Of a DNA stretch of 64,000 nucleotides, positions 19,089-39,257 are shown piece after piece. The position numbers and the translations under genes were made by a program. Location: contig NZ_VDUZ01000016.1 of assembly GCF_008039615.1 (NCBI RefSeq), positions 62,001 through 126,000 of the forward strand, given 5' to 3'. The stretch's first letter is position 1; each line of letters begins with the position of its first letter. The DNA comes from Vineibacter terrae. Lineage in GTDB: Bacteria > Pseudomonadota > Alphaproteobacteria > Reyranellales > Reyranellaceae. The notes under the pieces are model-generated. The model ran no database searches. It worked only from the letters and a program-made list of their open reading frames with translations, and was not told the DNA's origin.

Positions 19089-21371
19089 TCAGCCGTCGCC
19101 GTAGTAGCGCCTGTAGCCGCGGTAATAGTAGGCGCCGCTATCGGTGTAGTCGTACTGGGCATGGCGGCGCAGGTCGACCTGGCTCAGCACGATGCCCGAC
19201 AGGCGCGCGCCAGCCTCGTAGACCATCTTGATGCCTGTCGTTGCCACGTCGCGCCGCGTCTTCTCCCAGCGCACCACGAAGATCGTGGTATCGGTCTGCC
19301 GCACCAGCAGCAGCGCGTCGGACACCGCCAGCACCGGCGGGCTGTCGAGCACGACCAGATCGAAAGCGTCACCCAGCTGCTGCAGCAGGCGGCGCATGCG
19401 CAGGCTGCCCAGCAGATCGGTAGGAGACGGCGGCCGCTTGCCAGCCACGACGTAGTAGAGCCCGGTCTTAGGCTCGACCTGCACCAGATCCTCCAGGTCG
19501 CGCTGTCCGGACAGGAATTCGGCGAGGCCGGCGTCATTCTCGACCGCCAGGTTCTTGTGCAGCGACGGCTGGCGCATGTCGCAGTCGATGATCAGCGTGC
19601 GCGCGCCCGAGGCAGCCGAGGCGGCAGCGAGCGACAGCGCCGTGGTGGTCTTGCCCTCGCCCGGCACCGAGGACGTGACCACGACCGTGCGTTGCGGGTG
19701 GTCGGCGCTGCTGAGCGCGATGCCGGTGCGGATCGTGCGCAGCGCCTCCGAGAACGCCGAGTTCGGCTTGTCCACGACATTGAGCCACGGCTTGTGGCCG
19801 CGTCGCAGCCGGCCGGCCGATTGGTAAGGCACCATGCCCAGCGCCGCGACTCCGGTCTGCTGCTCGAGCTGATGCACCGAGCGGAAACCGGAGTCCATGA
19901 GCTCGATGCCGATCGACAGGCCGACGCCCAGGGCCAGCGAGGCCATGAAGGCCATCAGCACGATCAGCTCCTTGCGCGGCGCGATCGGAAAGACGGGTGC
20001 CGTCGCCTCGTTGATCTGCTTGGCGTCGCCCTTCTTGTCGACGCTGGCCAGCACATTGACTTCCTGCAGGCGGGTCAGCAGGGTCGAGTAGAGCTGCTTG
20101 GCGGTATCGAGCTCGGTCTGCAGCGCCCGCAATTGCGCCGAGCCTTCAGTCTGCCGCTTTAGCTCGCGCTCCAGCCGATCGACCTCCGCCTTCAGCTTGT
20201 TGGCGTTCTCGCGCGCCGCCTTGGCTTCGGCCTGCAGGTTGGTGGCGCTGCGCTGACGTTCCTCGTTCAACCGAGCGCGGACGGCGGCCAGACGCTTCGC
20301 CGCCTTCATGTATTCGGGATGGCCCGGCGCGGCATAGGACGCGACAGCCTGGAACTCCTTCTCGGCGCTCGCCACGTCGGCCAGCAGGCCGCTGCCTGCT
20401 CCGTCCGCCGAGACACCCTGCTTGACGCCCAGCTCGCGCTGCGTCGCCACCTGCTCGGCGGCGAGCAGCTGCGCCCGCACGTCGGCCAGCGTCTTGGTCA
20501 GGGACGAGGCGTCGCTGGTGTCGTACATGGCGTTGTCGGCCCGGAACTTCGCGAGGTTCCGCTCGGCCTCGACCACCTTGGCTCGGGCGTCGTCGATACG
20601 GCCGCTGAGGAACTTCATCATCTCCAGCGGCCCTTCGGACTTCTCCTTTTTCTGGTCGTCGATGTAGGTGCGGATCGCCTGATTGACCGAGGCGGCGGCG
20701 ATATGGGGGTCGGCCGCGCGGAAACGCACCGTCAGCACGAGCGAGTTCGGGTTGGTCTGGGTCGAGAGCCCGCCCAGCCAGGCGTCGGCGATCTGGGCGA
20801 CAAGCCTTTCGCGTGCTTCCGGCGTCATCGCCGCCAGGCGACGTTCCACCTCGTCGGGGGAGACCTGTGGCTTGGCCGGCGCATCGCTCAGCCGCAGGAT
20901 CTGCAGCACCGGCTGAAAGATCGCGCGCAGGCGGCTTTGCTCGGGAGGCGCCAGCTCCGGATTGTAGAGCGGGCTCTTGTCCAGTCCCAGGGCCAGGACG
21001 GTCTGGCGCGCCAGCCGTTCGCCGCGCAGCTTCGACGCCTCGGTCTCCATGACCCGGTAGTCGATCGGCTGCTGCGTCGAGTCCATGCTGGGTCGCATGA
21101 TGTCGCGGCTTTGGGGCTCGACGACCATGTCAGCCTGTGCCTGGTAGACGGGCGCCAGCTGATTGGCCACAAGCCACGCGATCGTGGTGCCGACCAGGGC
21201 CAGGCCCCCGATCAGCAACTTGTGCCGTCGCAGCGTCCCGAGGATCTGGCGAGCCGAAATCCCCGAACCACCGTCGTCGCCACCGCCGCCACCGGGCGGT
21301 GCCGGCAGTGGCTGTGGCGTCTCGGCAGGCAGATTGTTGTACCCAGTCTGCAAACGGCTGACGTTGGCCAT
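19089..21371 (-). CDS. Wzc-type polysaccharide co-polymerase with bacterial tyrosine kinase domain
   Basis: 760-residue inner-membrane protein. A Wzz domain with a first TM near residues 52-72 (LLIGGLALVGTTIAWLVA) leads into a long periplasmic coiled-coil region. A second TM follows (LIVLMAFMASLALGVGLSI), then a cytoplasmic BY-kinase: Walker A SSVPGEGKTT (about 567-576), Walker A' LIIDCDMRQPS and Walker B LVVLDSPP. The C-terminus is a tyrosine cluster of eight Tyr within QYDYTDSGAYYYRGYRRYY, the usual autophosphorylation tail. Such proteins control chain length and export of capsule or exopolysaccharide together with a Wza-type channel. ATG 21371 is chosen because AAGGAAGG lies just before it. 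Confidence 0.9.
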   Translation of the reverse strand: MANVSRLQTGYNNLPAETPQPLPAPPGGGGGDDGGSGISARQILGTLRRHKLLIGGLALVGTTIAWLVANQLAPVYQAQADMVVEPQSRDIMRPSMDSTQQPIDYRVMETEASKLRGERLARQTVLALGLDKSPLYNPELAPPEQSRLRAIFQPVLQILRLSDAPAKPQVSPDEVERRLAAMTPEARERLVAQIADAWLGGLSTQTNPNSLVLTVRFRAADPHIAAASVNQAIRTYIDDQKKEKSEGPLEMMKFLSGRIDDARAKVVEAERNLAKFRADNAMYDTSDASSLTKTLADVRAQLLAAEQVATQRELGVKQGVSADGAGSGLLADVASAEKEFQAVASYAAPGHPEYMKAAKRLAAVRARLNEERQRSATNLQAEAKAARENANKLKAEVDRLERELKRQTEGSAQLRALQTELDTAKQLYSTLLTRLQEVNVLASVDKKGDAKQINEATAPVFPIAPRKELIVLMAFMASLALGVGLSIGIELMDSGFRSVHQLEQQTGVAALGMVPYQSAGRLRRGHKPWLNVVDKPNSAFSEALRTIRTGIALSSADHPQRTVVVTSSVPGEGKTTTALSLAAASAASGARTLIIDCDMRQPSLHKNLAVENDAGLAEFLSGQRDLEDLVQVEPKTGLYYVVAGKRPPSPTDLLGSLRMRRLLQQLGDAFDLVVLDSPPVLAVSDALLLVRQTDTTIFVVRWEKTRRDVATTGIKMVYEAGARLSGIVLSQVDLRRHAQYDYTDSGAYYYRGYRRYYGDG

Positions 21372-21685
21372 CGCCCTTCCTTGCGCACGCACGCATAGAG
21401 GCGGCCCATCAGACCGCACGCCCTGGACTTTGAAAAATGATTGCTAAATTACTCTCGCGGAATGGAAATTGGAACCGAATTATACTTCATGTGTACCCAA
21501 CGATACCGACAACATCTTGTGTTCGGCTGTTCAACAGCCACATATCATTGAAATACGCACGCACATTCTATTCTGTTTCCTCCACTCTGGAGTGGATTTC
21601 CTGCGTTCCTCAAAACCCTGCAGCGTACTGACAATTTGGCAAATGAGTGTTCACACGTCAACTTGCATTTGGTGACGGACGAACT
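21372..21685. promoter_or_regulatory. AT-rich 314-bp gap upstream of the Wzc-like gene
   Basis: Base composition is visibly AT-richer than the flanking genes, and no gene is supported. It holds two perfect inverted repeats: GGCTGTT-C-AACAGCC at 21525-21539 and TCCACTC-TG-GAGTGGA at 21581-21596. The position directly before the Wzc-like gene suggests a separately regulated promoter, so wzc is probably not simply co-transcribed with the transporter genes upstream. Confidence 0.55.
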
Positions 21686-22324
21686 TTAATTGCCCTGTGC
21701 GTGCAAGCTGTCAGAGAAGCTGCGCGTGATGCCGGCGGTGAAGAAGGCCAGGACCGAGCGCTCGCCGACACGCAGATCGACCTTGGCGGGCATTCCCGGA
21801 AGGAGGTGGTGGCGGCGTGGACCGCTGCCTGGCGGCTCAGGCGGGATGGTGATTCGCACGATGAGTGCAAAATCAGGGTGATATGGCGTTCTGGCCGTAG
21901 GGGAGGTATCCGGTGCGATGCCCACCACCCGGCCTTTGATCGTGCCGTGGCGGATCGGGTGAAGCGTGACGATGGCGTCCTGGCCCATGGCAACGGCGCC
22001 GATATCGTCGCTGGCGACGCGGGCCTCGATCTCGAAGTGTCCGTCGCCGGCAGCGGCGCGAACCACGCCTGGAATCGTCACCACGTCCTCGATCTGCGCG
22101 ATCTGCATCCAGCCGACGGCGGCAGCGACCAGAAGCGCCAGGGTATAGATCAGCCAGGTCGCATAGGGCGAGTGCCGCCGCTGGGCGATTGCTTCGGCAT
22201 CCGGCAGGAAATCCGCGAACCTGGCGCTGGCACCGGGCAGGCGGCCTTCGGCGAGCGCCCGCGTCAGCGCCGCCTCTGTCGGCGTCGGCTTCGCCGTCAC
22301 CTTGGCTGCCGTGAGATCGGTCAT
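21686..22324 (-). CDS. Short HlyD-like protein lacking the lipoyl/coiled-coil hairpin
   Basis: 212 residues, about half the length of HlyD/PrtE adaptors (roughly 430-480). The N-terminus resembles the family: FLPDAEAIAQRR, then a single TM at about 56-76 and QIAQIEDVVTIPGVVR. The text then passes straight to the family's C-terminal barrel: FEIEARVASDDIGAVAMGQDA, TLHPIRHGTIKGRVVGIAPD, YHPDFALIVRI, LLPGMPAKVDLRVGERSVL. The roughly 220-residue segment that normally carries the lipoyl half-motifs and the TolC-contacting coiled coil is missing, with no frameshift or stop seen. It starts 13 bases after the ABC transporter gene, so the two are surely an operon. It could be a reduced adaptor or an in-frame deletion remnant. 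Confidence 0.75.
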   Translation of the reverse strand: MTDLTAAKVTAKPTPTEAALTRALAEGRLPGASARFADFLPDAEAIAQRRHSPYATWLIYTLALLVAAAVGWMQIAQIEDVVTIPGVVRAAAGDGHFEIEARVASDDIGAVAMGQDAIVTLHPIRHGTIKGRVVGIAPDTSPTARTPYHPDFALIVRITIPPEPPGSGPRRHHLLPGMPAKVDLRVGERSVLAFFTAGITRSFSDSLHAQGN

Positions 22325-22337
22325 GCTGCCGCTCCGC

Positions 22338-24596
22338 TCAGGCCGGGCTCAGGGGCGCGTCGACGCCGAGGCCGGCGAATGCCACGGGCGGCGCTTTCTG
22401 CCCTCGGCTGGCCTCGGCCATGCGAAGACGGGCATAGGCCATCACCTCCGTCGGCGGGCCGAAGCGCTCGATGCGGCCGTCGATCATCAGCGCCACCTTG
22501 TCGGCAATAGCCAGCGGCGCCAGCCGGTGTGTGATGATGATGATCGTCCGGCCACGCGCGTTGGCACGCAACGTCCGCAGGATCTGCTCCTCGCTTGCCG
22601 GGTCCAGCGCGCTGGTCGCCTCGTCGAGCACGATCACGCGCGGGTTGCGGATCAATGCCCGGGCGATGCAGAGCAGCTGCTTCTGCCCCGCCGAGAGGCC
22701 GCCGCCGCGCTCGCCAAGGACCGTGTTGTAGCCATGCGTGAGGCGCTGGATGAAATGATGCGCGCCCACGAATTTGGCGACGGCGACAATGCGGGCTGTG
22801 TCCTTGTCGGCGGCGCCCATGGCGATGTTCTCGCGCACTGTGCCGGCGAAGAGCTGAACCTCTTGCGGGACGCAACCGATCTGCGCCCGCAGCTGCGCCG
22901 GCGACACATGGGCGATATCGGTGCCATCCATCAGGACGCGGCCCGAGGTCGGCGCATAGAGGCCCTGGATGAGGTTGGCGACCGTGGTCTTGCCGGAGCC
23001 GGATGGCCCGATGATGCCGACGATCGAGCCGGCTTCGATATGCAGGTCGATGTCGCGCACGACGGGCGCGGCGGTGTCGTCATAGCGAAAGGACGCGCGC
23101 TCCAGCGCGACCTCGCCCTCGATCGGCGGCATGGGAACGAAGCCGCCGGGGCGGCTTTCGGTCGGCATGCGCATCATGTCGTCGACATGCGCCAGCGCCG
23201 CTCGCACGGACTGGACCGTGTGCCAGGCGCTCGCCACCTGGCGCATCGGCGTCAGGGCGCGGCCCGCCAGCATGTTGACGGCGACCAGGCCACCGATCGA
23301 CAGCCGCTGCCCGAGCAGCTCCCAGACGCCGAGCAGGACCACCCCGAGCAGTACGAACAGCTGCAGCACGCCGGTCGCCGAGGCCACCACGTTGGCGAGG
23401 TTGTTGGCGCGGAAGCCCGTCCAGGCTGACTGAGCCACGCGCGCGCCCCAGCGCCGCTCCATCTCCGCTTCCAAGCCCAGCGCCTTGATCGTGCCGGCGT
23501 TGCTCACGGTCTCGTTGAGCGCCGAGCCCTTGGCCGCCAGGGCGTGGAAGCTGTCGTCTATATGGCGCTTCTGGGCACGGTGGGTGAGCAGCGAGATGCC
23601 GGCAAAGAGCGGCAGCATCGCGATCACGAAAACGCCGACCGGCCAGCAGATCAGGCAGAGGAGCCCGAGATAGAGTCCGGCGAAGCTCAGGTCGATGATG
23701 AGCGACGGCATCTGGCCGGTGAAGAAGGCACGCAGCGTGTCGAGCTGCCGCAGGCGCTCGGCGATGACGCCCGACGGTGTGCGCTCGAAATGCCGATAAG
23801 GCAGGTGGATGAGATGGCGGACCACCTCGCTCGACAGCAGCGCGTCGATGCGCGCGCCGGTATGGCTCGACACGTAGCCGCGCAGGATCCGCAGGGCGAG
23901 ATCAAACAGATAGGCGATGGCCATGCCGCCCGCGAGCACCGCCAGTGTCGCCCCCATCGCCTCGGGCCGGCCTTGGACGACGACGTGGTTGAAGACCGCC
24001 ATCATGAAAAGCGGCGTCGCCAGCGCCAGGGTGTTGATCACGAAAGAGGCGGCCAGCAGCTCGCCCAGCACCCGCCTGACGCGGCTCCGCAACTGGTCCT
24101 TCCAGTCGATCTCCTCGGCCGGGCGCTGTTTGCGCACAAGGATCGCCGTGCCCCCGAGCGCCCCGAGGTCGTCGGCCGAGGCCGCCCGGACGATGCCGGT
24201 CGCGACGTCAACCACCGAGAACGCGCCGCCCTCCCGGCCCGCGACGACGTGCGCCGGCCGGCCGTCGCGGCCGACCAGCACGAACGGTGTCGGCAGTCCG
24301 GGCAAGCTGGCGATCGTCGCGCGAGTCTGCATCGCGTGGAACCCGGCACGGGCGCAGGCGAGGAGGAAAAGGCCCTCGTCCATTCCCGTGTCGACGATGG
24401 GCACCAGGGCGCGCAGCTCGGCTTCGGTCATCGGATGGCCAAGCAGCTCGGCGATGCGAAGAAAGCATCGCGCCAGCGTGTCGGTCGAGCGCGACGGCGC
24501 GGCGACCGACGGATCGGTCAGGAGCGCGGGACCCATGGCCGCCCGTGCAGCTGCCAAGCTATCGGAATCTTCCAAAATCGGGCTGTCGAGAGCCAT
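22338..24596 (-). CDS. Type I secretion ABC transporter with C39-like N-terminal domain (HlyB/LapB type)
   Basis: 752 residues. An N-terminal domain (about 40-155) has the C39-peptidase fold pattern (VLVGRDGRPAHVVAG, FSVVDVATGIV). I see no Q-x5-DCG catalytic Cys motif, so it is a non-cleaving C39-like domain. A six-helix transmembrane domain follows (about 170-460), then the ATPase: Walker A GPSGSGKTT (about 530), signature LSAGQ (Ala replaces the usual Gly of LSGGQ), Walker B VIVLDEATSALD and ITHRL. HlyB-like transporters of this type export unprocessed RTX or adhesin proteins. No RTX protein and no TolC are adjacent. It is the first gene of the minus-strand run and is divergent from the secreted protein at 24967. 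Confidence 0.88.
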   Translation of the reverse strand: MALDSPILEDSDSLAAARAAMGPALLTDPSVAAPSRSTDTLARCFLRIAELLGHPMTEAELRALVPIVDTGMDEGLFLLACARAGFHAMQTRATIASLPGLPTPFVLVGRDGRPAHVVAGREGGAFSVVDVATGIVRAASADDLGALGGTAILVRKQRPAEEIDWKDQLRSRVRRVLGELLAASFVINTLALATPLFMMAVFNHVVVQGRPEAMGATLAVLAGGMAIAYLFDLALRILRGYVSSHTGARIDALLSSEVVRHLIHLPYRHFERTPSGVIAERLRQLDTLRAFFTGQMPSLIIDLSFAGLYLGLLCLICWPVGVFVIAMLPLFAGISLLTHRAQKRHIDDSFHALAAKGSALNETVSNAGTIKALGLEAEMERRWGARVAQSAWTGFRANNLANVVASATGVLQLFVLLGVVLLGVWELLGQRLSIGGLVAVNMLAGRALTPMRQVASAWHTVQSVRAALAHVDDMMRMPTESRPGGFVPMPPIEGEVALERASFRYDDTAAPVVRDIDLHIEAGSIVGIIGPSGSGKTTVANLIQGLYAPTSGRVLMDGTDIAHVSPAQLRAQIGCVPQEVQLFAGTVRENIAMGAADKDTARIVAVAKFVGAHHFIQRLTHGYNTVLGERGGGLSAGQKQLLCIARALIRNPRVIVLDEATSALDPASEEQILRTLRANARGRTIIIITHRLAPLAIADKVALMIDGRIERFGPPTEVMAYARLRMAEASRGQKAPPVAFAGLGVDAPLSPA

Positions 24597-24900: not shown

Positions 24901-24966
24901 TGTTATAAAAATTAGGTAGGTTTGTGCATCTACCAGAAAACACTGTATTTTGCAGGACGCGCTATC

Positions 24967-26058
24967 ATGCTGTTCACGCGCTTCGTTCCTGCCCTCGCCG
25001 GCCTGGTCCTTGGTGTGGGCGCTCTGACATCAGCCTTTGCGGCCCCGCCGCAGCTCGGGGGCTCCCGAAGCGTCGAACCGACGGTGCTGGTGGCACAGGC
25101 CAACGATCTTGCCGACGCGATCGCCCGCAACGAAGGTGACTGGCGCAACCGGGTTCGGAGCTATTTGCAGGCTGCCTATCCGGACCGCGTTGCCACGACC
25201 GACCGTGCCATCCAGCTCCTGAAGTCGGTCAACAGCAAGTGCTTGGCCTCCCGCACCTGCCCGCCCAACGTGCTCAACGAAATCGCCCTTATTTCAAAGG
25301 GTTCGGTCTGTGCAGCCTACATCATCGACTCGGTCTGCGTGCGCCGGTTCACGGTGCCGCGCGGAGCGCAGGCGTTTGACTTCGGGCCGAGCGGCCAGCC
25401 GGTCTATCCCGGCATGCGGGCAGTCAGCCCGGGAGATCCGCGGATCACGGGCAGCAGCCTGACGGGAGTCCGCTACAACGACGCCTATCCGGCCTCCGGC
25501 GATTCGATCATCGGCGTGACGGGCTTCAAGACCCCGATGCCGGAGGGCAAGTACCGTGTGGTGCTGGTCAGCGGCAAGCGGCCGCTGGCCCAGGCGGTGT
25601 CGACACCGTTCGGACGGACGATCCAGGCGAACGGCCGCAGCATCGAGGTGATGGTGGCCGGGCCGGATCGCTGGCTGCCGCGCGGCGCGCTGGCCAACGG
25701 GTCGCCCGAGCAGGTGTTCGCGCCCAACAACGTGCTGCCGGGCAGCGCCGCGGCGATCGTGTTCGATATCGACCACCGCGGCGGGGATCTGCTGCTGCAG
25801 TTCCCGCAATCGGCTGAGGTCGGCGCGCTGATGATCGAGCCGGCCGGCCAGCCGTCCGGGTTCGTGCTTGATTCGACGGCCCAGTCGATGGGACCGGTTT
25901 CCAATAGCGGGTGTCTGGAGCAGGAGTCCCGGATCGACCGGGCCCTGGCCGAGCTGCCACAGGATCAGCCGCCGGGCGTGCGGAACTGCCCGGGTGGCCT
26001 GTGCCAGCCGCCGCCGCCGCCGTGCCAGGGCGCCTGTCAACCGCTGAGCCGCAGCTAG
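24967..26058 (+). CDS. Secreted protein with a possible carbohydrate-binding beta-sandwich and Cys/Pro tail
   Basis: 363 residues. A clear Sec signal peptide (LAGLVLGVGALTSAFA) would be cut after residue 25. A helical region follows with two Cys pairs (KCLASRTC, VCAAYIIDSVC). A beta-rich middle begins FDFGPSGQPVYPGMRAV and contains SGDSIIGVTGFKTPMPEGKYRVVLVSG. This resembles the galactose-binding-like module at the N-terminus of some pectin and rhamnogalacturonan esterases (FDFGP...G.Y.V.L). The tail CPGGLCQPPPPPCQGACQ is Cys/Pro rich. ATG 24967 begins the signal peptide. It heads a plus-strand run with the beta-barrel and Wza-like genes, so a periplasmic role in glycan export is inferred. 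The exact family is unknown to me. Confidence 0.6.
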   Translation: MLFTRFVPALAGLVLGVGALTSAFAAPPQLGGSRSVEPTVLVAQANDLADAIARNEGDWRNRVRSYLQAAYPDRVATTDRAIQLLKSVNSKCLASRTCPPNVLNEIALISKGSVCAAYIIDSVCVRRFTVPRGAQAFDFGPSGQPVYPGMRAVSPGDPRITGSSLTGVRYNDAYPASGDSIIGVTGFKTPMPEGKYRVVLVSGKRPLAQAVSTPFGRTIQANGRSIEVMVAGPDRWLPRGALANGSPEQVFAPNNVLPGSAAAIVFDIDHRGGDLLLQFPQSAEVGALMIEPAGQPSGFVLDSTAQSMGPVSNSGCLEQESRIDRALAELPQDQPPGVRNCPGGLCQPPPPPCQGACQPLSRS

Positions 26059-26083: not shown

Positions 26084-27415
26084 GTGCGTATTTCATCGAC
26101 CTTCAGGGCCGGACGATCCTTCGCGGTCTTCCTGGCTGTTTGCGGCGGCATGGCTGGTGCTCTCGATAGCCTGCCCGCTTCAGCCCAGTACTCGGTGCCG
26201 GCGACGACGCCGACGCCACCCCGTCGCCCGGCTGCCGCTCCGGCGCCGGACGACCTGTCGGCCCGCGACGCCTCTGTCCTGCGGCGTCCGCGCGCCGACC
26301 CGCCCGATGGCGTGCCCATCGGCAGCTTCGTGCTCTTCCCTCGTATCGAGGTCGATGGCGAGTACGACGACAACGTGTTCCGCACGCGCAACAACCGGGA
26401 GAGCGATTTCATCTTCCGGGTGCGGCCGGGCCTGACGCTGAGCAGCGATTGGGATCAGCACGGACTTGATCTCTACGCCCTGGGTGAGATCGGGCGATAC
26501 GCCGATCTATCGAGCGAGAACTACGAGGCTTTTACCGTCGGTGGTCGTGGCCGGGTCGATCTCACCGACGAGCTGATATGGACGACCTACGGCGAGTTTT
26601 CACGCAACGCGCTATCGCGCGGCGCTCCCGCGCTGTTCGCTCTGCCGAGCGCCGAGCGGACGATCGTCAACGTCATCACCGGCGGCACGGATCTGACCTA
26701 CAACGGCGATCCGTTCTACGGCCGCATCGGTCCGCGCTTTCGCCGCTTCGATTACGTGCAAGGCGGTTCGAGCCAAGACAACTTCAATGTCTTCGACATC
26801 AGCGGCCGTATCGGCTATCGCATCACGCCTGAGTTCTCGGTTTTCGTGGACCCGAGCTATGAGTGGGTTCGCTACGACAAGCGGTCTTTCGGCATCGATC
26901 AGGACAACGAGGGCTTCGACGTTCGGCTCGGTGTGTCCTATGACGTGACCCGGACCATTACAGCCGAGTTCGGCGGCGGTTACTATCGCCGCACCTATGA
27001 CGACCCCAACACCAAGCCCCAATCCGGCTTCTCGTTCCTGGGCAGGCTGTATTGGAACCCGCTTGACAACGTGTCGATCGAAGCCGAGGCGCGGCGCTCA
27101 TTCTCGCAGTACCGCACGAACCTCAGCAATGCTGTCGCAGTGGGCAACGCCATCGAGACCTATTTCGGTATCCGTGCCGGGTGGGAGCCCTTCGATCCGC
27201 TGCTGATCGACGGCGGTGTCGCATACGCGCAATATCGCTACCCCGGTCAGGGCTTCAAGGAAGATTACTGGTTCGTCGACATTGGCGCGAAGTACTTCAT
27301 CAACAGGAACTTCTACCTCGGGCCGCGATATTTCTTCGAGCATCGCACCGCGCGGCCGAGCGCGGGCAACTATAACGACAACCGCTTCCTGTTCACGATC
27401 GGCGCGCAGCTGTAA
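26084..27415 (+). CDS. Outer-membrane beta-barrel protein of the exopolysaccharide-associated type (BBP2-like)
   Basis: This 443-residue protein has a signal peptide ending PASA (about residue 34). A Pro-rich linker follows, then a body of alternating strands from VLFPRIEVDGEYDDNVFRTR to the terminal FLFTIGAQL, with many aromatic and charged alternations. The opening DGEYDDNVFR...DFIFRVRPGL is typical of the beta-barrel porin 2 (DUF2320/BBP2_2) family found in polysaccharide export loci. The start is GTG 26084, since the signal peptide needs the upstream residues. It probably forms an outer-membrane pore or scaffold working with the Wza-like lipoprotein encoded 40 bases downstream. Confidence 0.8.
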   Translation: MRISSTFRAGRSFAVFLAVCGGMAGALDSLPASAQYSVPATTPTPPRRPAAAPAPDDLSARDASVLRRPRADPPDGVPIGSFVLFPRIEVDGEYDDNVFRTRNNRESDFIFRVRPGLTLSSDWDQHGLDLYALGEIGRYADLSSENYEAFTVGGRGRVDLTDELIWTTYGEFSRNALSRGAPALFALPSAERTIVNVITGGTDLTYNGDPFYGRIGPRFRRFDYVQGGSSQDNFNVFDISGRIGYRITPEFSVFVDPSYEWVRYDKRSFGIDQDNEGFDVRLGVSYDVTRTITAEFGGGYYRRTYDDPNTKPQSGFSFLGRLYWNPLDNVSIEAEARRSFSQYRTNLSNAVAVGNAIETYFGIRAGWEPFDPLLIDGGVAYAQYRYPGQGFKEDYWFVDIGAKYFINRNFYLGPRYFFEHRTARPSAGNYNDNRFLFTIGAQL

Positions 27416-27455: not shown

Positions 27456-28049
27456 ATGATGAATGTGTTTCAGCCTTGTCGGCGAGGTGGCCGTGCCGCT
27501 TCTCTCCTCGTGCTCGTCGGTGCGCTGGGGCTGGCCGCGTGTGAAGGCGGCACGACCAGCACCGGCGTGCCGTGCCCGACCGCCAAGGCGCCGGTCGGCG
27601 GCCTCGACTACAAGCTGGGCGTCGGCGACAGGGTCAAGGTCACCGTCATCGGCCAGCCGGAGCTGGGGAGCGAAGCCGAGGTTGACGCCGGCGGCAAGCT
27701 CGTGATCGCCCTTGCCGGCGAGGTGCTGGCCGTCAACCATACAGTGTCCGAGATCCAGGCTGAGATCACGCAGAAGCTGAAGTCCAATATCCTGGTCGAT
27801 CCGCGTGTGTCGGTGCAGGTGTCGGGCTATCGCCCGGTGACGGTGCTTGGCCAGGTCCGCCAGCCGGGCCGCTATCCGTACTCGTTCGGCCTTGATGTTC
27901 GGGGCGCCACGGCGCTCGCCGGCGGCCTGGAGCGGCGTGCCAGCCCGGAGCGGTCGGTCATCTTCCGCCCCGGGCAGTCCTGCGACGCCAAGCCGGATAC
28001 GCCGCTGTTCCCCGGCGACACTGTCGAGGTGCTGCGGCGCGGCGGCTGA
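27456..28049 (+). CDS. Wza-like polysaccharide export lipoprotein (Poly_export/SLBB)
   Basis: 197 residues. A signal peptide ends in lipobox LAAC (Cys29). A Poly_export domain follows, beginning DYKLGVGDRVKVTVIGQPELG and continuing with EVDAGGKLVIALAGEV and ITQKLKSNILVDPRVSVQV. A soluble-ligand-binding beta-grasp (SLBB) segment comes next with YRPVTVLGQVRQPGRYPYSFGLDVRGATALAGG. It is shorter than E. coli Wza (about 380) and lacks a C-terminal amphipathic helix, as is common for the short alphaproteobacterial forms. It is the periplasmic/outer-membrane partner expected for the Wzc-like kinase at 19089-21371. A strong terminator follows. Confidence 0.87.
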   Translation: MMNVFQPCRRGGRAASLLVLVGALGLAACEGGTTSTGVPCPTAKAPVGGLDYKLGVGDRVKVTVIGQPELGSEAEVDAGGKLVIALAGEVLAVNHTVSEIQAEITQKLKSNILVDPRVSVQVSGYRPVTVLGQVRQPGRYPYSFGLDVRGATALAGGLERRASPERSVIFRPGQSCDAKPDTPLFPGDTVEVLRRGG

Positions 28050-28076: not shown

Positions 28077-28106
28077 AAGGGCCGGTCCAACGGACCGGCC
28101 CTTTTC
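28077..28106 (+). terminator. Rho-independent terminator of the polysaccharide export run
   Basis: Stem GGGCCGGTCC (28079-28088) / GGACCGGCCC (28092-28101) with loop AAC, extended by A-T pairs and followed by TTTTC. It lies 28 bases after the Wza-like stop. Confidence 0.9.
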
Positions 28107-28192
28107 ATTGGGGCTTGCCCCTGTGGTCCCACCCGGTTTTCCCCGGTCGTTTTTGACAGGCACCGACAAGGGTCGGCTATGGTTGATTCGCC

Positions 28193-29017
28193 ATGAAGCC
28201 ATCGGCAGCCATTGCCATGATGCGGCAGCCAGAACGTCTATGGGCCATCCCTGCCGTGCATGGGCTGGTGCATCGGCTGCTGCCCGTGGCGGACGCGATC
28301 GCAGCCCGGCTCGAGCCCGGCGATGCCGTGGTCTTCCTGGGCAATCTGATCGGCGATGTCGGTGGCGACGAGGCCGCCGATGTGGCGGCAACGCTGGATT
28401 TGGCGCTGGCCCTGCGCCGGCGCACGCTGGCTTTGCCAGGCGCCCGTGCCTGCGATGTCGCCTTCCTGCGCGGCACGCAGGAGGAAATGTGGACCAAGCT
28501 GGAACAGCTGCATTTCGCGCAGAATCCGGGCCAGGTTCTACGCTGGATGCTGCAGCGTGGGCTGGCGGGGACGATCGCGGCCTATGGCGGCGCTGGCGCG
28601 GTCAGCGAGGGGGAGCGTGCCGTGCGCGACGGTCCCATGGCAATCGCACGCTGGACCACCACCTTGCGGCGAGCGCTGCGGGCCCGGCCCGGCCATGTCG
28701 AGTGGCTGGCCGCGATTCGGCGGGCCGCGCTGAGCGAGGACGGTCGCCTGCTGGCGGTGCACCACGGTGTCGACACGACCAAGCCGCTCGACCTGCAGGG
28801 TGATTCCTTCTGGTGGGGCGGCAGCACGGCGTTCGAGGCCATCGCCGAGCCGTATAATGGCATCGAGCGCTTCGTTCGCGGCTTCGACAGGAACCATCCC
28901 GGCGTGGTCGACCAGGCTTTCACCCTGACCATCGACGCGGGCTGCGGCTTCGGCGGCCCGTTGCTGGCGGCGCTGCTGGACGCGCGTGGGCAGCTGCTCG
29001 ACCTCGTGGAGGGCTGA
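28193..29017 (+). CDS. Metallophosphoesterase-like pseudoenzyme
   Basis: 274 residues aligning by eye with ApaH/PrpE-type calcineurin-like phosphatases, but with the metal-site motifs changed. GDxHG is PAVHG (20-24), GDxxDRG is GNLIGDV (50-56), GNHE is GTQE (94-97), and the late GH motif is RGF. The framework is kept: AVVFLG, DVAFLRGTQEEM, AVHHGVDTTKPLD, FWWGG and IDAGCGFGGPLLA all sit in the family's order. Such losses should abolish two-metal catalysis, so a binding or regulatory role is inferred. It follows the export run after a terminator and is convergent with the DprE-like pair. Confidence 0.7.
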   Translation: MKPSAAIAMMRQPERLWAIPAVHGLVHRLLPVADAIAARLEPGDAVVFLGNLIGDVGGDEAADVAATLDLALALRRRTLALPGARACDVAFLRGTQEEMWTKLEQLHFAQNPGQVLRWMLQRGLAGTIAAYGGAGAVSEGERAVRDGPMAIARWTTTLRRALRARPGHVEWLAAIRRAALSEDGRLLAVHHGVDTTKPLDLQGDSFWWGGSTAFEAIAEPYNGIERFVRGFDRNHPGVVDQAFTLTIDAGCGFGGPLLAALLDARGQLLDLVEG

Positions 29018-29051: not shown

Positions 29052-29795
29052 TTATATGTCCAGTCGCTTGAACAGTGGTTCGGGTATCGCCTTCACGGCC
29101 CACATGATCCAGCGCCAGGCCGCCGGGCTGTACACGACGCTCCGGCGGCGCTGGGCTGCGCGCCAGCAATCATCGGCCACGCGCTCGACGGTGACGACTC
29201 CTCGCAGGCCCGTGCGGGTGAATGTCATGGCGCTGTCGAAAGGCCCCGCCTTCACCAGCGTCACCGAGACGCCGGCCCGGTGCAGACGTGAGCGGCAGCC
29301 CGATGCCAGCGCGTGCAAGCCCGCCTTGCTGGCGCCGTAGACATAGTTGCGGCGGCGCCCGCGATCCCCAGCGACCGATCCGACGATCACCACCCGGGCG
29401 CCGCGCCGGCTTTCCAGCACCGGCAGCAGATGCAGCAGGATGGCGGCGGCGCCTGCCAGGTTGGCGTTCAGTGTCGCCGCTGCCAGTCCCGGATCGTGCT
29501 CCATCTCGCGCTGCGCCGGCATGGTGGCGAAGGCGAGCATCACATTGGGGCGCTTCTCGCCTGCGAGCCGGGTGGCGACGGCGCCATGCGTTTCCGGCGC
29601 CGTCGCGTCGAAAGCAATGACATCGACATCGGCCGCGAAGCGTGTGCGCAGATCGGCGGCGGCGTCCGCCAGGTCCGCCGTGTCGCGCCCGGCCAGCAGC
29701 AGGCGGGCGCCCTTGTCGGCGGCGCGGCGTGCGAAGGCACGCGCCAGCGCCGCGGATGCGCCCAGGACCAGCCAGGTATCGGCGTCAGCGGCCAC
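29052..29795 (-). CDS. Short-chain dehydrogenase, DprE2-like
   Basis: 247 residues, SDR fold. The nucleotide-binding loop reads LVLGASAALARAFA, with the usual Gly-rich spacing altered. The catalytic motif is YVYGASKAG, preceded by VVIVGSVAGDRG. It follows the DprE1-like oxidase by four bases. In mycobacteria DprE1 oxidises and DprE2 reduces polyprenyl-phospho-ribose to the arabinose epimer, and the gene order here mirrors that pair. A start at GTG 29795 is chosen because upstream in-frame codons lie within the oxidase gene and look like shadow. The substrate is an inference from pairing. Confidence 0.75.
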   Translation of the reverse strand: MAADADTWLVLGASAALARAFARRAADKGARLLLAGRDTADLADAAADLRTRFAADVDVIAFDATAPETHGAVATRLAGEKRPNVMLAFATMPAQREMEHDPGLAAATLNANLAGAAAILLHLLPVLESRRGARVVIVGSVAGDRGRRRNYVYGASKAGLHALASGCRSRLHRAGVSVTLVKAGPFDSAMTFTRTGLRGVVTVERVADDCWRAAQRRRSVVYSPAAWRWIMWAVKAIPEPLFKRLDI

Positions 29796-29799
29796 GAGC

Positions 29800-31188
29800 C
29801 TACACGATGTAGTCACGCAGCCGCAGTCGGCGTGCGAGATCCGACTGCAAGCGCATATCCGGGTCGATGTCGGCAAGCACGGCGCGGAACTCCGCCAGCC
29901 GTGGATACATCGCGGCAAAGCCGTGATCCGTGAGATGCGCGTCGCTGGCCAGGAAGACCCGGCCGCCGCGATCCAACGTCTCGCGCTCCAGCCGATGCAT
30001 GAGGTTCGCCTCGACAACACTGATCGGCAGGTCGAGCACCAGGGCGATTCCCGTCCGCGCGAAGCTCAGCATGCCGCGCCCGTCCTTGCCGATCGCCTGG
30101 ACGGCGGCGCCGGCGGCGCCGCCGGCGCGTCGCGCGATGTCCAGCAGGCGCCGGATCGCTGCTGCGACGCCGTCGCGCGGCAGCACGCAATGCAGGCGCA
30201 CCGTGCCGTGCTGTGCCAGTCGTGATGCCGGCGCAACGCCGTGCTGGCGCAGAAAACGGTCGATGGCCATGGTGCTGGTACGGCCGTGTCGTGCCCGCCG
30301 GTACTGGCGTTCGCTGCGGACGCGCAGCGCCAGACGCGGCGGCAGAAGCATGTCTGCGAGCCCGCCGGAGGGCCGCGACCGATGGCGGGCCGGCGACCAT
30401 GCGCGGCCACCGCCGGATGCAATGTCGGCTGTCTCGAGCACGCCGCGCTCCTGCGCCGTGCCCGGCGCCCGCATGTCGATCCAGGCTGCGGCGTAGGCAT
30501 GCGCCTGCGCGCCGGCGGTGAGCTGGTCGAGCAGCATGTCGAGCGAGCCGATCGCCTGACGGCGCAGGGTGACGTCGGTCGATGTGATCGGCGCCATGCG
30601 GATCGCAGCCCTTGCGATGAGGCCCGTGAGCCCCATGCCGCCGATGGTCGCTGCGAACAGGGCCGGCTCCTCCTGCGGCGAGACGCGCCGCAGGCCACCG
30701 CGTGGCGTGATCAGGTCGAGCCAGATCACGTGGTCGCCGAACGAGCCGGCACGCATGTGGTTCGTACCATGCGCGTCGGCGGCGATGGCGCCGCCCAGCG
30801 TGGCGCCAAGGCTGCCGGGATAGACAGCCGGCATGTGCCGGCGGGGCAGGAAGGTACGCAGGATGTCACCGATCGTGACACCGGCCTCGGCGACCAGCAT
30901 GTGCTCGTCCGGGTCGAATGACAGCATGCGATCCAGCCGCACGGTCAGCGCTACGGCGCCGCCGTCGTTGAGCGCGGCATCGCCCAGGCCTTGGCCGCTG
31001 CCGCGCGCGATGAGGCTGCGGCCCTCGGGGGCCGGCATTGCCGACAGCAGGCGTGAGGGCCTGTCCGGCCGGCACACGATCTGGGTCGCCGCCGAACGGC
31101 AGGTGGAATCCGAAAAGCGCAGCTGCGCCCAGCCACCCGGTGGCGCATTGATATCAGCGTCTTCGTCACGTGCTGTGACGGTGGTCAT
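29800..31188 (-). CDS. FAD-dependent oxidase, DprE1-like
   Basis: 462 residues. The FAD-binding PCMH-type N-terminal domain contains IARGSGQGLGDAALNDGG, VAEAGVTIGDILRTFLP, YPGSLGATLGGAIAADAHGTNHMRAGSFGDHV and IGGMGLTGLI. A substrate domain follows and the protein ends LRLRDYIV. This motif set is that of decaprenyl-phosphoryl-ribose 2'-oxidase (DprE1) and its proteobacterial relatives. With the SDR next to it, the pair could epimerise a polyprenyl-phospho-pentose to the arabinose form for a surface glycan. No prenyl-phosphoribose synthase (UbiA-like) or arabinosyltransferase is in the window. Confidence is good for the enzyme class, moderate for the substrate. Confidence 0.77.
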   Translation of the reverse strand: MTTVTARDEDADINAPPGGWAQLRFSDSTCRSAATQIVCRPDRPSRLLSAMPAPEGRSLIARGSGQGLGDAALNDGGAVALTVRLDRMLSFDPDEHMLVAEAGVTIGDILRTFLPRRHMPAVYPGSLGATLGGAIAADAHGTNHMRAGSFGDHVIWLDLITPRGGLRRVSPQEEPALFAATIGGMGLTGLIARAAIRMAPITSTDVTLRRQAIGSLDMLLDQLTAGAQAHAYAAAWIDMRAPGTAQERGVLETADIASGGGRAWSPARHRSRPSGGLADMLLPPRLALRVRSERQYRRARHGRTSTMAIDRFLRQHGVAPASRLAQHGTVRLHCVLPRDGVAAAIRRLLDIARRAGGAAGAAVQAIGKDGRGMLSFARTGIALVLDLPISVVEANLMHRLERETLDRGGRVFLASDAHLTDHGFAAMYPRLAEFRAVLADIDPDMRLQSDLARRLRLRDYIV

Positions 31189-31245: not shown

Positions 31246-31568
31246 TCATCGCGGCGGCACGGATTGCGCCTGGGCCCCGGCCGCTGCCTCGCCGATATCC
31301 TCATAGAGGGTGCGTGCTTCGCTGGCGGGGCCGCGTCGCGTGCCTGGAGCCAGCACGCGCACAACCCGTACCTGGGGGCCTAGCGTGAATGTCAGGACCA
31401 TCCCCGGCGCCACCAGCGCATGCGCCTTGTCCGTGGGGCGGCCGTCGATGCGGAACGGCGTGCCGGCGACGGCGCGCGCCGCCGCGCTGCGCGACCGGAA
31501 GAAACGCGCATGCCACAGCCATTTGTCGAGGCGGATGGAACCGCCACCGGGCTGCGGCGTCGCCGCGG

Positions 31569-31572
<4 letters not shown>
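31246..31572 (-). CDS. S4-domain RNA-binding protein (Hsp15-like)
   Basis: 108 residues. An S4 domain lies near the N-terminus: IRLDKWLWHARFFRSRSAAARAV, then FRIDGRPTDKAHALVAPGMVLTF. This is the layout of Hsp15/YrfH-type proteins, which bind rRNA or stalled 50S subunits. It starts at GTG 31572, which overlaps the TGA of the Suv3-like helicase gene (GTGA), implying coupled translation. Helicase followed by S4 protein is a recurrent alphaproteobacterial pairing. Confidence 0.85.
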
Positions 31573-34802
<3,230 letters not shown>

Positions 34803-37217: not shown

Positions 37218-38477
37218 ATGCATCAGGATGCTCGTGAAACGCTACCGGTCGAACCGGGCGGAGGGCTGTCCGACACGCGGCTCGTGTGCTTCTTCTGCGG
37301 CGCGGTCCGGGCGCCCGATCTCCATCCCGTCTGCCGGGCCTGCGGCGGCACGATGATCGCCCGCACGTCGTGGCCGGGGCGCTTGCCGGCCGGTCGTCGG
37401 TTCTGGGAGTTCGCCGATCTTCTTCCGGTATCGCGCCATCGCGTCAGCCTGGGCGAGGGCGGAACGCCGTTGCTGAAGCTCGACCGCCTGTTCCCGGACG
37501 ACGAGGTCTATGCCAAGGCGGAATGGACCAATGCCACCGGCTCGTTCAAGGATCGCGGGTCCGCCGTCGCCATGTCGGCCGCGATGTCGCTGGGCGCCAA
37601 GGGCATCATCTGCGCGTCCACGGGCAACAACGCGGCTTCCGTCAGCGCCTTTGCGGCCCGCGCCGGCCTGCCCTGCATCGTGGCGCTGCCGAAGGGCACG
37701 CCGGCCAACAAGATCATCCAGGCCAAGGCGCATGGCGCGATCGTGCTCGAGGTAGCCGGCGACTTCAGCGATGCCTACCGCGAGGCGGAGCGGATCCAGC
37801 GCGCGGTCCCGGGATGGGCCAATCTCACGTCGACGTACGTCAACGCCTATATGACGGCGGCGCACGCAACGATCCTGTATGAACTCCACGCGGAAATCGG
37901 CGCGGTGGGAACCGTGATCGTGCCGATCGGCGCTGGCCCCATGCTCGATGGCATCATGCAGGGCGCCCAGACGCTGCATGAGCACGGGTATCTGGAGCGG
38001 CTGCCGCGGCCGGTCGGGGTGCAGGCGTCGGGCTGCGCGCCAATCGCGGCTGCGTTCGCGCGAGGCCTGGACGTTGTTGCGGCATGGGCCGCGCCGGTAT
38101 CCGGCATCGCCGGCTCTATCAACGATCCCCTGCGCGGCTACCCAGATGACGGGACGCGAACCTTGCGGATCATGCGGTCGGCCGGCGGGCATGCCGTCGC
38201 CGTCACCGACGCGCAGATCGAGCGCGCGATGCTCGACCTTGGCCGCTGCGAGGGGATCGCGGCGGAGCCCGCCGCCGCGACCCCGCTGGCCGCACTGCGT
38301 GACCTGGCGGACAAGGACCTGCCGCGTCCGATCGTGCTCGTGATCTCAGGGCACGCTCTCAAGGATCCAGCGGCGCAGCCCGGCGCTTCGGGGCAGAGCC
38401 TCGATGTCGAAGCCGGGGCGGCGCCTGCCGCCATCGTATCGGCGGCTCTTCGGCAGTTCGCGCAGCGGATGCTATGA
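37218..38477 (+). CDS. Threonine synthase-like PLP enzyme
   Basis: 419 residues. It begins with a zinc-ribbon-like stretch CFFCGAVRAPDLHPVCRACGG. The fold-type II PLP domain follows: GEGGTPLLKLDRL, NATGSFKDRGSAVAM with the Schiff-base Lys, STGNNAASVSAFAARAG and IVPIGAGPMLDG (phosphate loop). This resembles the ThrC form with an N-terminal ribbon, which makes threonine from O-phosphohomoserine; a related PLP lyase is possible. ATG 37218 has GGAAAGGG upstream; GTG 37191 and ATG 37197 are alternatives. Its stop overlaps the convergent HAD gene by six bases. Confidence 0.8.
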   Translation: MHQDARETLPVEPGGGLSDTRLVCFFCGAVRAPDLHPVCRACGGTMIARTSWPGRLPAGRRFWEFADLLPVSRHRVSLGEGGTPLLKLDRLFPDDEVYAKAEWTNATGSFKDRGSAVAMSAAMSLGAKGIICASTGNNAASVSAFAARAGLPCIVALPKGTPANKIIQAKAHGAIVLEVAGDFSDAYREAERIQRAVPGWANLTSTYVNAYMTAAHATILYELHAEIGAVGTVIVPIGAGPMLDGIMQGAQTLHEHGYLERLPRPVGVQASGCAPIAAAFARGLDVVAAWAAPVSGIAGSINDPLRGYPDDGTRTLRIMRSAGGHAVAVTDAQIERAMLDLGRCEGIAAEPAAATPLAALRDLADKDLPRPIVLVISGHALKDPAAQPGASGQSLDVEAGAAPAAIVSAALRQFAQRML

Positions 38478-39104
38478 CCGGCGTGCCGCCGGCCGGCCGG
38501 CAAGATGTGGCTTCAGCAGCGCCGCCAGAGGATGCTCGCCCGTCCAGTGGATCGCATGCCATCCGGTGGCGCGGGCAGCGCGCACGTTCTCGATCGTGTC
38601 GTCGACGAGGACAAGATTCCGGGGCGCGAGGCCGACCCGCGCCGTGACGCAACGGAAGAAATCGGGCGACGGCTTGCGGTAGCCGAGGGCCGCCGAGTAG
38701 TGGAAGCCGTCGATATGATCGGCCAGGCCGACCTTTTCCATCAGGTGCTGCGCCCGCATATGCTCCTGGTTGGTGGCGAGGTGGACAGCCATCCCTGCCG
38801 CACGGAAGCCCGCCAGGTCGCGCAGGAGCGCGTCATCCAGCCGTGAATCCTGCTCGAACCAGTAGGCGGTCAGCTGCTGCGGCGTCAGATGCGGCGCAAT
38901 CTCCTTCAGCACGAGCGGCAGATGATCGAGCAGGCCGGCGCGGCCCAGAACGATATCGTCCCAATGCGGCGCGAAGAACCGGCGTTGCAGGTCGTCCGGG
39001 CGCAGGCCGAGATCAGCCTCCAGCCGCGTCGACCAGGGCCGGCCGTCGTCGGGACGTCCGCGCACGAGCACGCCGTCGACATCCATCATGAGCGCCCGGA
39101 TCAA
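38472..39104 (-). CDS. HAD-superfamily hydrolase
   Basis: 210 residues with the HAD motifs: I, MDVDGVLV (nucleophile Asp and acid Asp); II, VHLATNQ; III, GYRKPSPDFF (Lys); IV, VLVDDTIENV (Asp pair). A helical cap lies between I and II, as in beta-phosphoglucomutase/epoxide-hydrolase-like members. TTG 39104 with an upstream GGGAG is taken as start, because it includes the first strand LIRALMMDVDG; ATG 39089 would truncate that strand. The phosphate substrate is unknown. The long frame continuing on this strand to 41774 is a shadow of polA. Confidence 0.78.
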   Translation of the reverse strand: MIRALMMDVDGVLVRGRPDDGRPWSTRLEADLGLRPDDLQRRFFAPHWDDIVLGRAGLLDHLPLVLKEIAPHLTPQQLTAYWFEQDSRLDDALLRDLAGFRAAGMAVHLATNQEHMRAQHLMEKVGLADHIDGFHYSAALGYRKPSPDFFRCVTARVGLAPRNLVLVDDTIENVRAARATGWHAIHWTGEHPLAALLKPHLAGRPAARRS

Positions 39105-39257
39105 TCTTCTCTCCCGTGAAGGTCCGTCCGCCGTGTTCGCATATTTGCGCTGCCGGGCAGGGACGGGGCAAGATCCGGCGGGGCAACCGCTCACCGTGAT
39201 CCCCAGCGTCAGTGTTCCCCCGCTGACGCCCGCCGCCCGCCGTGCTACCGAATCGCC

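Follow-up and report, generated by a model that had tools for sequence, protein, structure and literature searches.

What can a protein with the fold of a phosphatase do once most of its metal-holding residues have been replaced, and why is its gene kept? This question is raised by one open reading frame in a 64,000-nucleotide stretch of the Vineibacter terrae genome (contig NZ_VDUZ01000016.1, positions 62,001 to 126,000; hereafter, the window), which lies as follows, in the numbering of the window:

28193..29017, + strand: PPP-type pseudophosphatase ORF, 274 aa, with its ATG at 28193 and its stop codon ending at 29017 (ORF call, fold, homology, and replaced ligands)

As most of the metal-holding residues are lost and the gene is nevertheless kept, usually right after carD, the function of its product is probably one of binding or regulation rather than catalysis. 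The reading preferred here, to which we give an even chance, is that of a PPP-type pseudophosphatase acting by binding, with its partner in the CarD/sigma-32 module.

Fold and descent

Searches with single sequences leave the frame without annotation. Pfam and NCBIfam gave no match to the window protein, even at an E-value of 10, and among the NCBIfam equivalogs, including ApaH and PrpE, no family was matched at E ≤ 10. PF00149, run against the whole genome, returned 12 places, from which 28193-29017 is absent; the two PPP paralogues of the same genome (L007 and L005) are detected by this model, whereas the pseudophosphatase of the window is missed. The PF00149 cut-off is not reached by the homologues either, since none of 32 family members matches at E ≤ 1 (0 families for the window protein), and the best Pfam E-value across these 32 members is 0.0094. 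In PHROGs, a NinI-like phosphatase was matched by two of the three proteins searched, the window protein not being one of the two, and a PDB sequence search with the single window protein as query gave chance-level matches only.

Profiles reach further. The family profile finds 2qjc in the PDB (E 1.4e-5), and a profile of 32 homologues picks up active PPP paralogues in the window's own genome (contig C76, E 8.6e-7; contig C9, 5.7e-5). Alignment of the family profile by hhalign with an active-paralogue profile (27 active sequences from the same and related genomes) scored 99.5%, with an E-value of 2.7e-22 over 227 columns, and the altered motifs fall opposite the intact ones, motif by motif. 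Three active PPPs are matched by the family profile at 1e-18 to 1e-22, and the active PPPs L288-L290, whose ligands are intact, align with the family from end to end. Bacterial PPP phosphatases of Alphaproteobacteria (L007, 1441-2199; L005, 161-1063; L288) are colinear with the family over nearly the whole length.

The AlphaFold2 model of the window protein has a pLDDT of 95.6 and a pTM of 0.92. With VIA-align, its best structural match is the PnkP phosphatase (Z 20.5, rmsd 3.0, 215 residues aligned), followed by RLPH2 (Z 20.1), the putative Ap4A hydrolase 2qjc (19.1), and lambda PP (18.0), with E. coli ApaH slightly lower (Z 16.8). For an Azospirillum ortholog, modelled separately (pLDDT 93.5), these enzymes again head the structural list, with Z up to 20.9 (2qjc, Z 20.8; E. 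coli ApaH, Z 17.4). For the PnkP phosphatase domain (4j6o), RLPH2 (5vjv), lambda PP (1g5b), and the ApaH-type proteins (9ojd, 2qjc), all of which are metal-dependent enzymes, the fold likeness covers Z 16.8-20.9 and rmsd 2.6-3.5 Å over 195-227 residues, at 13-22% identity to the family. The window protein is a PPP/ApaH-type phosphoesterase by descent, and its fold is full-length, far beyond chance; the coordinates given in an earlier note on this DNA, made from its letters, are confirmed by the ORF call, and the phosphoesterase fold that it named is borne out by the model confidence and the hhalign E-value.

Conserved loss of the active site

Ligand columns were assigned to what we take to be the lambda PP positions D20, H22, D49, N75, H139, and H186. 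Residues were counted in 160 family rows (the window, 27 named loci, and 132 whole-genome loci), all distinct, and in 30 active rows; most of the compared ligand columns hold one or two gaps among the 160 family rows. The motifs in the window are the following:

28250..28264, + strand: PAVHG codons (residues 20-24), opposite GDIHG; D replaced by A, H23 kept
28340..28354, + strand: GNLIG codons (residues 50-54), opposite the GDYVD part of GDYVDRG; N51 and G54 in place of the two Asp
28472..28486, + strand: GTQEE codons (residues 94-98), opposite GNHEE; T in place of N, and Q in place of the catalytic H
28760..28768, + strand: H190-H191-G192 codons, opposite HAG; ligand His present in the window, another residue in 86/160 rows
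28877..28885, + strand: RGF codons (residues 229-231), opposite HGH; F in place of the ligand H, and R in place of the H before it (R in 149/160)

The six metal ligands (D, H, D, N, H, H) and the catalytic His are invariant in the active relatives (30/30 rows), and are kept in PPPs of the L007, L005, and L288 type, while the family has lost most of them. The four altered motifs described earlier (PAVHG, 20-24; GNLIG, 50-54; GTQE, 94-97; RGF, 229-231) are all present, but the accompanying claim that every metal ligand is replaced was overstated, as two histidines stay in the window: four of the six ligand positions are replaced, and H23 and H190 are kept. H190, opposite the HAG histidine, was missing from the earlier motif list. 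Across the 160 rows, 0, 1, 2, and 3 of the six ligands are kept in 18, 69, 71, and 2 rows, respectively, the maximum being 3/6.

Column by column, the Asp of GDxHG (position 21) is found in 0/160 family rows against 30/30 active rows, its place being taken by Ala (108), Ser (40), Cys (5), Pro (4), Thr (1), or a gap (2), and the first His of the same motif (H23) is kept in 131/160. The bridging Asp (51) persists in 3/160 rows against 30/30, with Asn in 149, Gly in 6, Ser in 1, and a gap in 1; the DRG Asp (54) is absent from all 160 rows and present in all 30 active ones, with Gly in 158 of the family rows, and the Arg after this position is poorly conserved (49/160). Asn of GNHE (95) remains in 4/160 rows against 30/30, being replaced by Ala (81), Gly (20), Ser (17), Gln (15), Thr (9), Arg (5), and others, and the catalytic His (96) remains in 2/160 against 30/30, with Gln in 148. 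The HAG His (190) is found in 74/160 rows (Asn 41, Ser 31, Ala 9, Pro 5), and the last His (231) in 5/160 against 30/30 (Tyr 64, Phe 62, and others).

The replaced positions are, thus, of two kinds, those that drift (21, 95, 231) and those at which a single new residue has become fixed (51, 54, 96, 229), and this combination is expected for a re-used site, not for plain decay. Fixed in the family, though not in the active set, are, among others, W17, R75, R93, K102, W154, T155, W207, and R229, of which R93, presumably opposite a phosphate-contacting Arg of lambda PP, is Arg or Lys in 158/160 rows. Common to the family and its active relatives are W118, G123, Y131, H168, G192, Q202, W208, G230, and D248. 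The spacing, said earlier to be kept along the length, is so in that the two groups are colinear over nearly all of it, but the window and the relatives nearest to it (L031-L035, L015) have an insert of 4-5 residues after GNLIG, and family positions 74-75 and 102-103 are gaps in the active relatives. With the ligand histidines H23 and H190 and also E97 in place, one weak metal site may be left in the window protein.

Two deviating groups of members can be described. In L040 and L048 (Magnetospirillum), the motif reads GDYLGH, with the bridging Asp present, as it is in 3/160 rows altogether; the L040, L047, and L048 (Magnetospirillum) loci hold no CarD or sigma match. L020-L028, from other genera of the window's family, form a divergent subclade that has lost the first His as well (GALAGDD and similar), together with the C-terminal GGCGFGG stretch.

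Distribution and selection

Of 385 Alphaproteobacteria genomes, an even sample of the class, 134 contain the family as a single copy (E ≤ 1e-20), representing 99 of 276 genera, and an own-genome profile search returned the 28193-29017 protein as the sole member in the window's genome. In a phylum sample, 15 of 398 genomes gave a match at E ≤ 1e-15, of which 13 are family members by score, all from the window's class; the other two matches are active PPPs, one inside the class (G687) and one outside (G525), and so is a weak second match in G139. Members outside Alphaproteobacteria were rejected on this count, all 13 family-scoring genomes of the phylum sample belonging to the class. Presence is patchy among the genomes of genus g3.

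A maximum-likelihood tree built from 65 family rows and 27 active ones splits the two groups with a support of 100, and members of one GTDB family usually cluster, as judged by eye. The window differs from three genus sisters by a dN of 0.12-0.18 and a dS of 0.88-1.02, and pN/pS lies at 0.19-0.30 across all six pairs among these four sequences, which corresponds to purifying selection. A recent pseudogene is ruled out by the open frame, by the occurrence of one copy in 134/385 genomes, and by this pN/pS range.

A phosphatase fold, the conserved loss of catalytic residues, and selection are, therefore, found together, as the term pseudophosphatase implies. The alignment of homologues and the selection analysis that the earlier note had proposed as a check both favor its reading of a likely pseudophosphatase, with conserved replacements in one clade and a high-confidence fold. 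This is a conserved, unannotated, single-copy PPP-type pseudophosphatase family across many alphaproteobacterial genera, and this clade of dead enzymes is well founded and, among bacteria, unusual. The window protein itself is very probably a pseudoenzyme, the loss of catalysis being deduced from the residues.

Comparison with known systems

Pseudophosphatases of the PPP type have a eukaryotic precedent. In the passages seen of a 2023 paper (PMC10317984), PfPPP8 of Plasmodium falciparum is called the first pseudophosphatase in the PPP family; its GDXXDRG motif is changed to GNLINRG, its recombinant domain is inactive, also after restoration of the residues, and the protein works in the basal complex. 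It resembles the window protein in having a PPP domain in which the first Asp of GDXXDRG has become Asn (GNLINRG in PfPPP8, GNLIG in the window), with no activity in PfPPP8 and none expected in the window protein. It differs in that it is eukaryotic, with one core motif reported as changed in these passages, whereas the bacterial family has several altered motifs in many genera of one class. From the motifs as described, the Asp to Asn change looks like an independent parallel.

In the titles, abstracts, and passages of open-licence PMC articles, no literature was found on a bacterial PPP pseudophosphatase or on the gene beside CarD, and the word 'phosphatase' is absent from the main text of two papers on Caulobacter CdnL (PMC5324124 and PMC11034885, the latter from 2024). 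If the proposed reading is true, the family, with its fixed substitutions at the dead site, offers a ready-made system for studying the conversion of a phosphatase fold to a binding role, and its stable place beside CarD may reveal an unrecognised CarD partner.

Gene order

Synteny was compared in 133 genomes, namely the window and all class-sample members except G003. CarD is encoded upstream, on the same strand, in 114/133 (109 within 600 bp, 4 within 1.5 kb, and 1 farther), on the opposite strand in 1/133, and is absent from the fetched stretch in 18/133, the window included. A sigma factor follows downstream, on the same strand, in 49/133 genomes, and both genes flank the pseudophosphatase within 1.5 kb in 47/133; in L036, the downstream sigma factor scores above the cut-off of NCBIfam NF005693 ('RNA polymerase factor sigma-32') and below that of TIGR02392 (RpoH). 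FdxA is found upstream in 100/133 and a Suv3 helicase in 52/133.

CarD/CdnL and sigma-32 (RpoH) are, thus, genomic partners of the family, although unrelated to it as proteins. According to passages of PMC5324124, CarD is a factor that binds RNA polymerase, homologs of it occur in virtually all alphaproteobacteria, and Caulobacter CdnL binds RNA polymerase and supports rRNA transcription. Since the gene stands directly after carD in most members and, in about one-third, also before a sigma-32-type gene, its partner most likely belongs to that module.

Evolutionary distances point the same way. On pairwise distances uncorrected for kinship, the divergence of the pseudophosphatase in 43 genomes follows that of CarD (partial r 0.45) and of the sigma factor (0.41) more closely than that of FdxA (0.06), and in 99 genomes, again without kinship correction, the values are 0.58 with CarD given FdxA and 0.15 with FdxA given CarD. 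This co-divergence supports the link, but is suggestive only, because the species tree is not controlled for.

The CarD module does not require the pseudophosphatase, as 61 of 97 CarD-bearing genomes are without the family (threshold E ≤ 1e-20). Thirty CarD loci were examined, 15 of them from family-less genomes, each comprising CarD and a maximum of 1.5 kb on either side (some are shorter). A sigma gene directly follows CarD in 4 of the 15 family-less loci (G034, G064, G119, and G133), and no active PPP occupies the CarD-sigma slot in these 15, where no profile match was obtained below E 0.03. No CarD or sigma match is found near the active PPPs L288-L290. Gene order can stay conserved without shared function, and a role in transcription rests here on gene order; a link of the protein to CarD or sigma-32 is, in our judgment, evenly balanced.

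Possible functions

Under the preferred reading, that of a binding protein with a partner in the CarD/sigma-32 module, an ordinary bacterial PPP phosphatase would be the ancestor, from which most metal-binding and catalytic residues were lost, and the product would have been retained as a folded, presumably non-catalytic protein. The old active-site cleft would have been refilled, with N51, G54, Q96, and R229 beside R93, E97, and E98, and the family-specific Trp residues (W17, W154, W207) would contribute to it. Such a cleft could hold a protein or an anionic ligand with no cleavage, and the partner would most likely be CarD-RNA polymerase, sigma-32, or a signal tuning them in growth or stress. 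A more specific form of this proposal, which we put forward tentatively and at less than even chance, is that this would be the first bacterial PPP-type pseudophosphatase family, that it controls a CarD-RNA polymerase or sigma-32 step, and that the emptied site (Asn, Gln, Gly, Arg) is a pocket reading a phosphorylated protein or a nucleotide alarmone.

The partner may, instead, be unrelated to CarD and sigma-32, the protein being an alarmone (Ap4A) sensor or a general phosphoprotein binder and the gene order that of an old block. This explanation is possible, at clearly less than even chance. The ApaH-type enzymes rank among the best fold matches of both models, and the basic residue at position 93 is nearly constant, yet the DRG arginine is not conserved. 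FdxA, Suv3, and S4 also belong to the block, and the co-divergence with CarD and the sigma factor nevertheless exceeds that with FdxA. The many CarD-bearing genomes without the family, and the location of the gene away from CarD in the window's genus, where selection still acts, are further points for such a partner.

It is improbable that the protein is still an enzyme, working with one remaining metal or through a metal-free mechanism built from R93, Q96, E97, E98, R229, H168, and D204. Polar residues at or near the old site are strongly conserved, and two ligand histidines are retained in many members, but the GDxHG Asp is found in none, the bridging Asp in three, and the catalytic His in two of the 160 rows. 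For PfPPP8 (GNLINRG), moreover, passages of PMC10317984 report a recombinant domain that is inactive even with its residues restored.

The polysaccharide neighborhood in the window's genus

The window departs from the common gene order, and the following features surround the pseudophosphatase:

26084..27415, + strand: BBP2_2 outer-membrane beta-barrel; a neighbor in the window's genus only
27456..28049, + strand: Wza-like polysaccharide export protein (Poly_export and SLBB); a neighbor in the window's genus only
28077..28103, + strand: terminator-like hairpin after the Wza-like gene, with a 12 bp GC-rich stem, then TT; folding z -4.1 (-5.0 in sister L031)
28153..28183, + strand: promoter-like TTGACA (28153-28158) and TATGGT (28178-28183), spacer 19, just upstream of the ATG
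31249..31572, - strand: S4-domain protein, part of the Suv3/S4/FdxA/CarD block
31572..34802, - strand: Suv3-type helicase, likely a remnant of the (Suv3, S4, FdxA, CarD) block that lies upstream in relatives

The Suv3 and S4 genes of this older block have stayed at a distance of 2-6 kb from the pseudophosphatase. In the window's genome, contig C40 carries a CarD together with FdxA, and contig C6 carries a second CarD. With the window's proteins as queries, Wza, BBP2, and Wzc matches occur around the gene in 1/133 genomes, which is the window; as the flanks of the other 132 genomes extend at most 5.1 kb upstream, Wzc, which lies 6.8 kb from the pseudophosphatase on the opposite strand, could not show there. 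In the set of 27 named loci, most of which have flanks of 10 kb, the Wza/BBP2/Wzc neighborhood is found in the genus sisters L031-L033 and is absent in the other 24, and the nearest relatives, L034 and L035, have CarD. Most simply, the polysaccharide context arose once, on the genus stem.

In this genus, the gene sits beside the polysaccharide-export genes and behind its own promoter-like sequence. TTGACA and TATG are identical in all four genus sequences in the alignment. A standard promoter/terminator scan, in which the promoter search allows spacers of 16-18, lists neither element, so that both remain proposals; the hairpin may separate the Wza-like gene from the pseudophosphatase. Between the promoter-like hexamers lies an inverted repeat, CCGAC-N4-GTCGG (28163-28176), perfect in L032 too and imperfect in L031 and L033, which is possibly an operator.

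The suggestion in the earlier note of a link to the nearby Wzc tyrosine kinase fails as a family role, given Wza beside the gene in 1/133 genomes, the window, and CarD upstream in 114/133, and it was rejected by synteny (most flanks being about 5 kb, with Wzc itself beyond them). For the window's genus, a regulator of polysaccharide export answering Wzc is very unlikely, since, although the Wza/BBP2/Wzc neighborhood is common to all four genus sequences and an active-looking PPP paralogue follows a BBP2_2 barrel gene in the same genome, Wza or BBP2 matches adjoin the gene in 0/132 other genomes and 0/24 other named loci, a terminator-like hairpin and a promoter-like sequence stand between, and Wzc is distant and on the opposite strand.

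The paralogue in question (L007, contig C9, 1441-2199) has intact motifs and starts 52 bp downstream of the barrel gene (93-1388), whose Pfam family is that of the window barrel. The second PPP paralogue of this genome (L005) adjoins a nucleotide-sugar epimerase-like gene, according to its ORF reading.

Several other genes of the window deserve mention. Codirectional genes at 19089-24596 (-), for a type I secretion-like ABC protein of 752 aa, a short HlyD-like protein of 212 aa, and a Wzc-like chain-length/tyrosine kinase of 776 aa, bring protein export and polysaccharide export together in an unusual mix. A 378-aa protein (24922-26058, +), encoded between the ABC and beta-barrel genes, matches no Pfam family at E 0.01 and has relatives in three other fetched loci. 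At 29052-31188 (-), genes for a short-chain dehydrogenase and an FAD_binding_4 oxidoreductase lie in tandem, in an arrangement that seems to us reminiscent of DprE2/DprE1. Finally, a 1100-aa frame at 38475-41774 (-) has Pfam matches at its C-terminal end only (HAD hydrolase).
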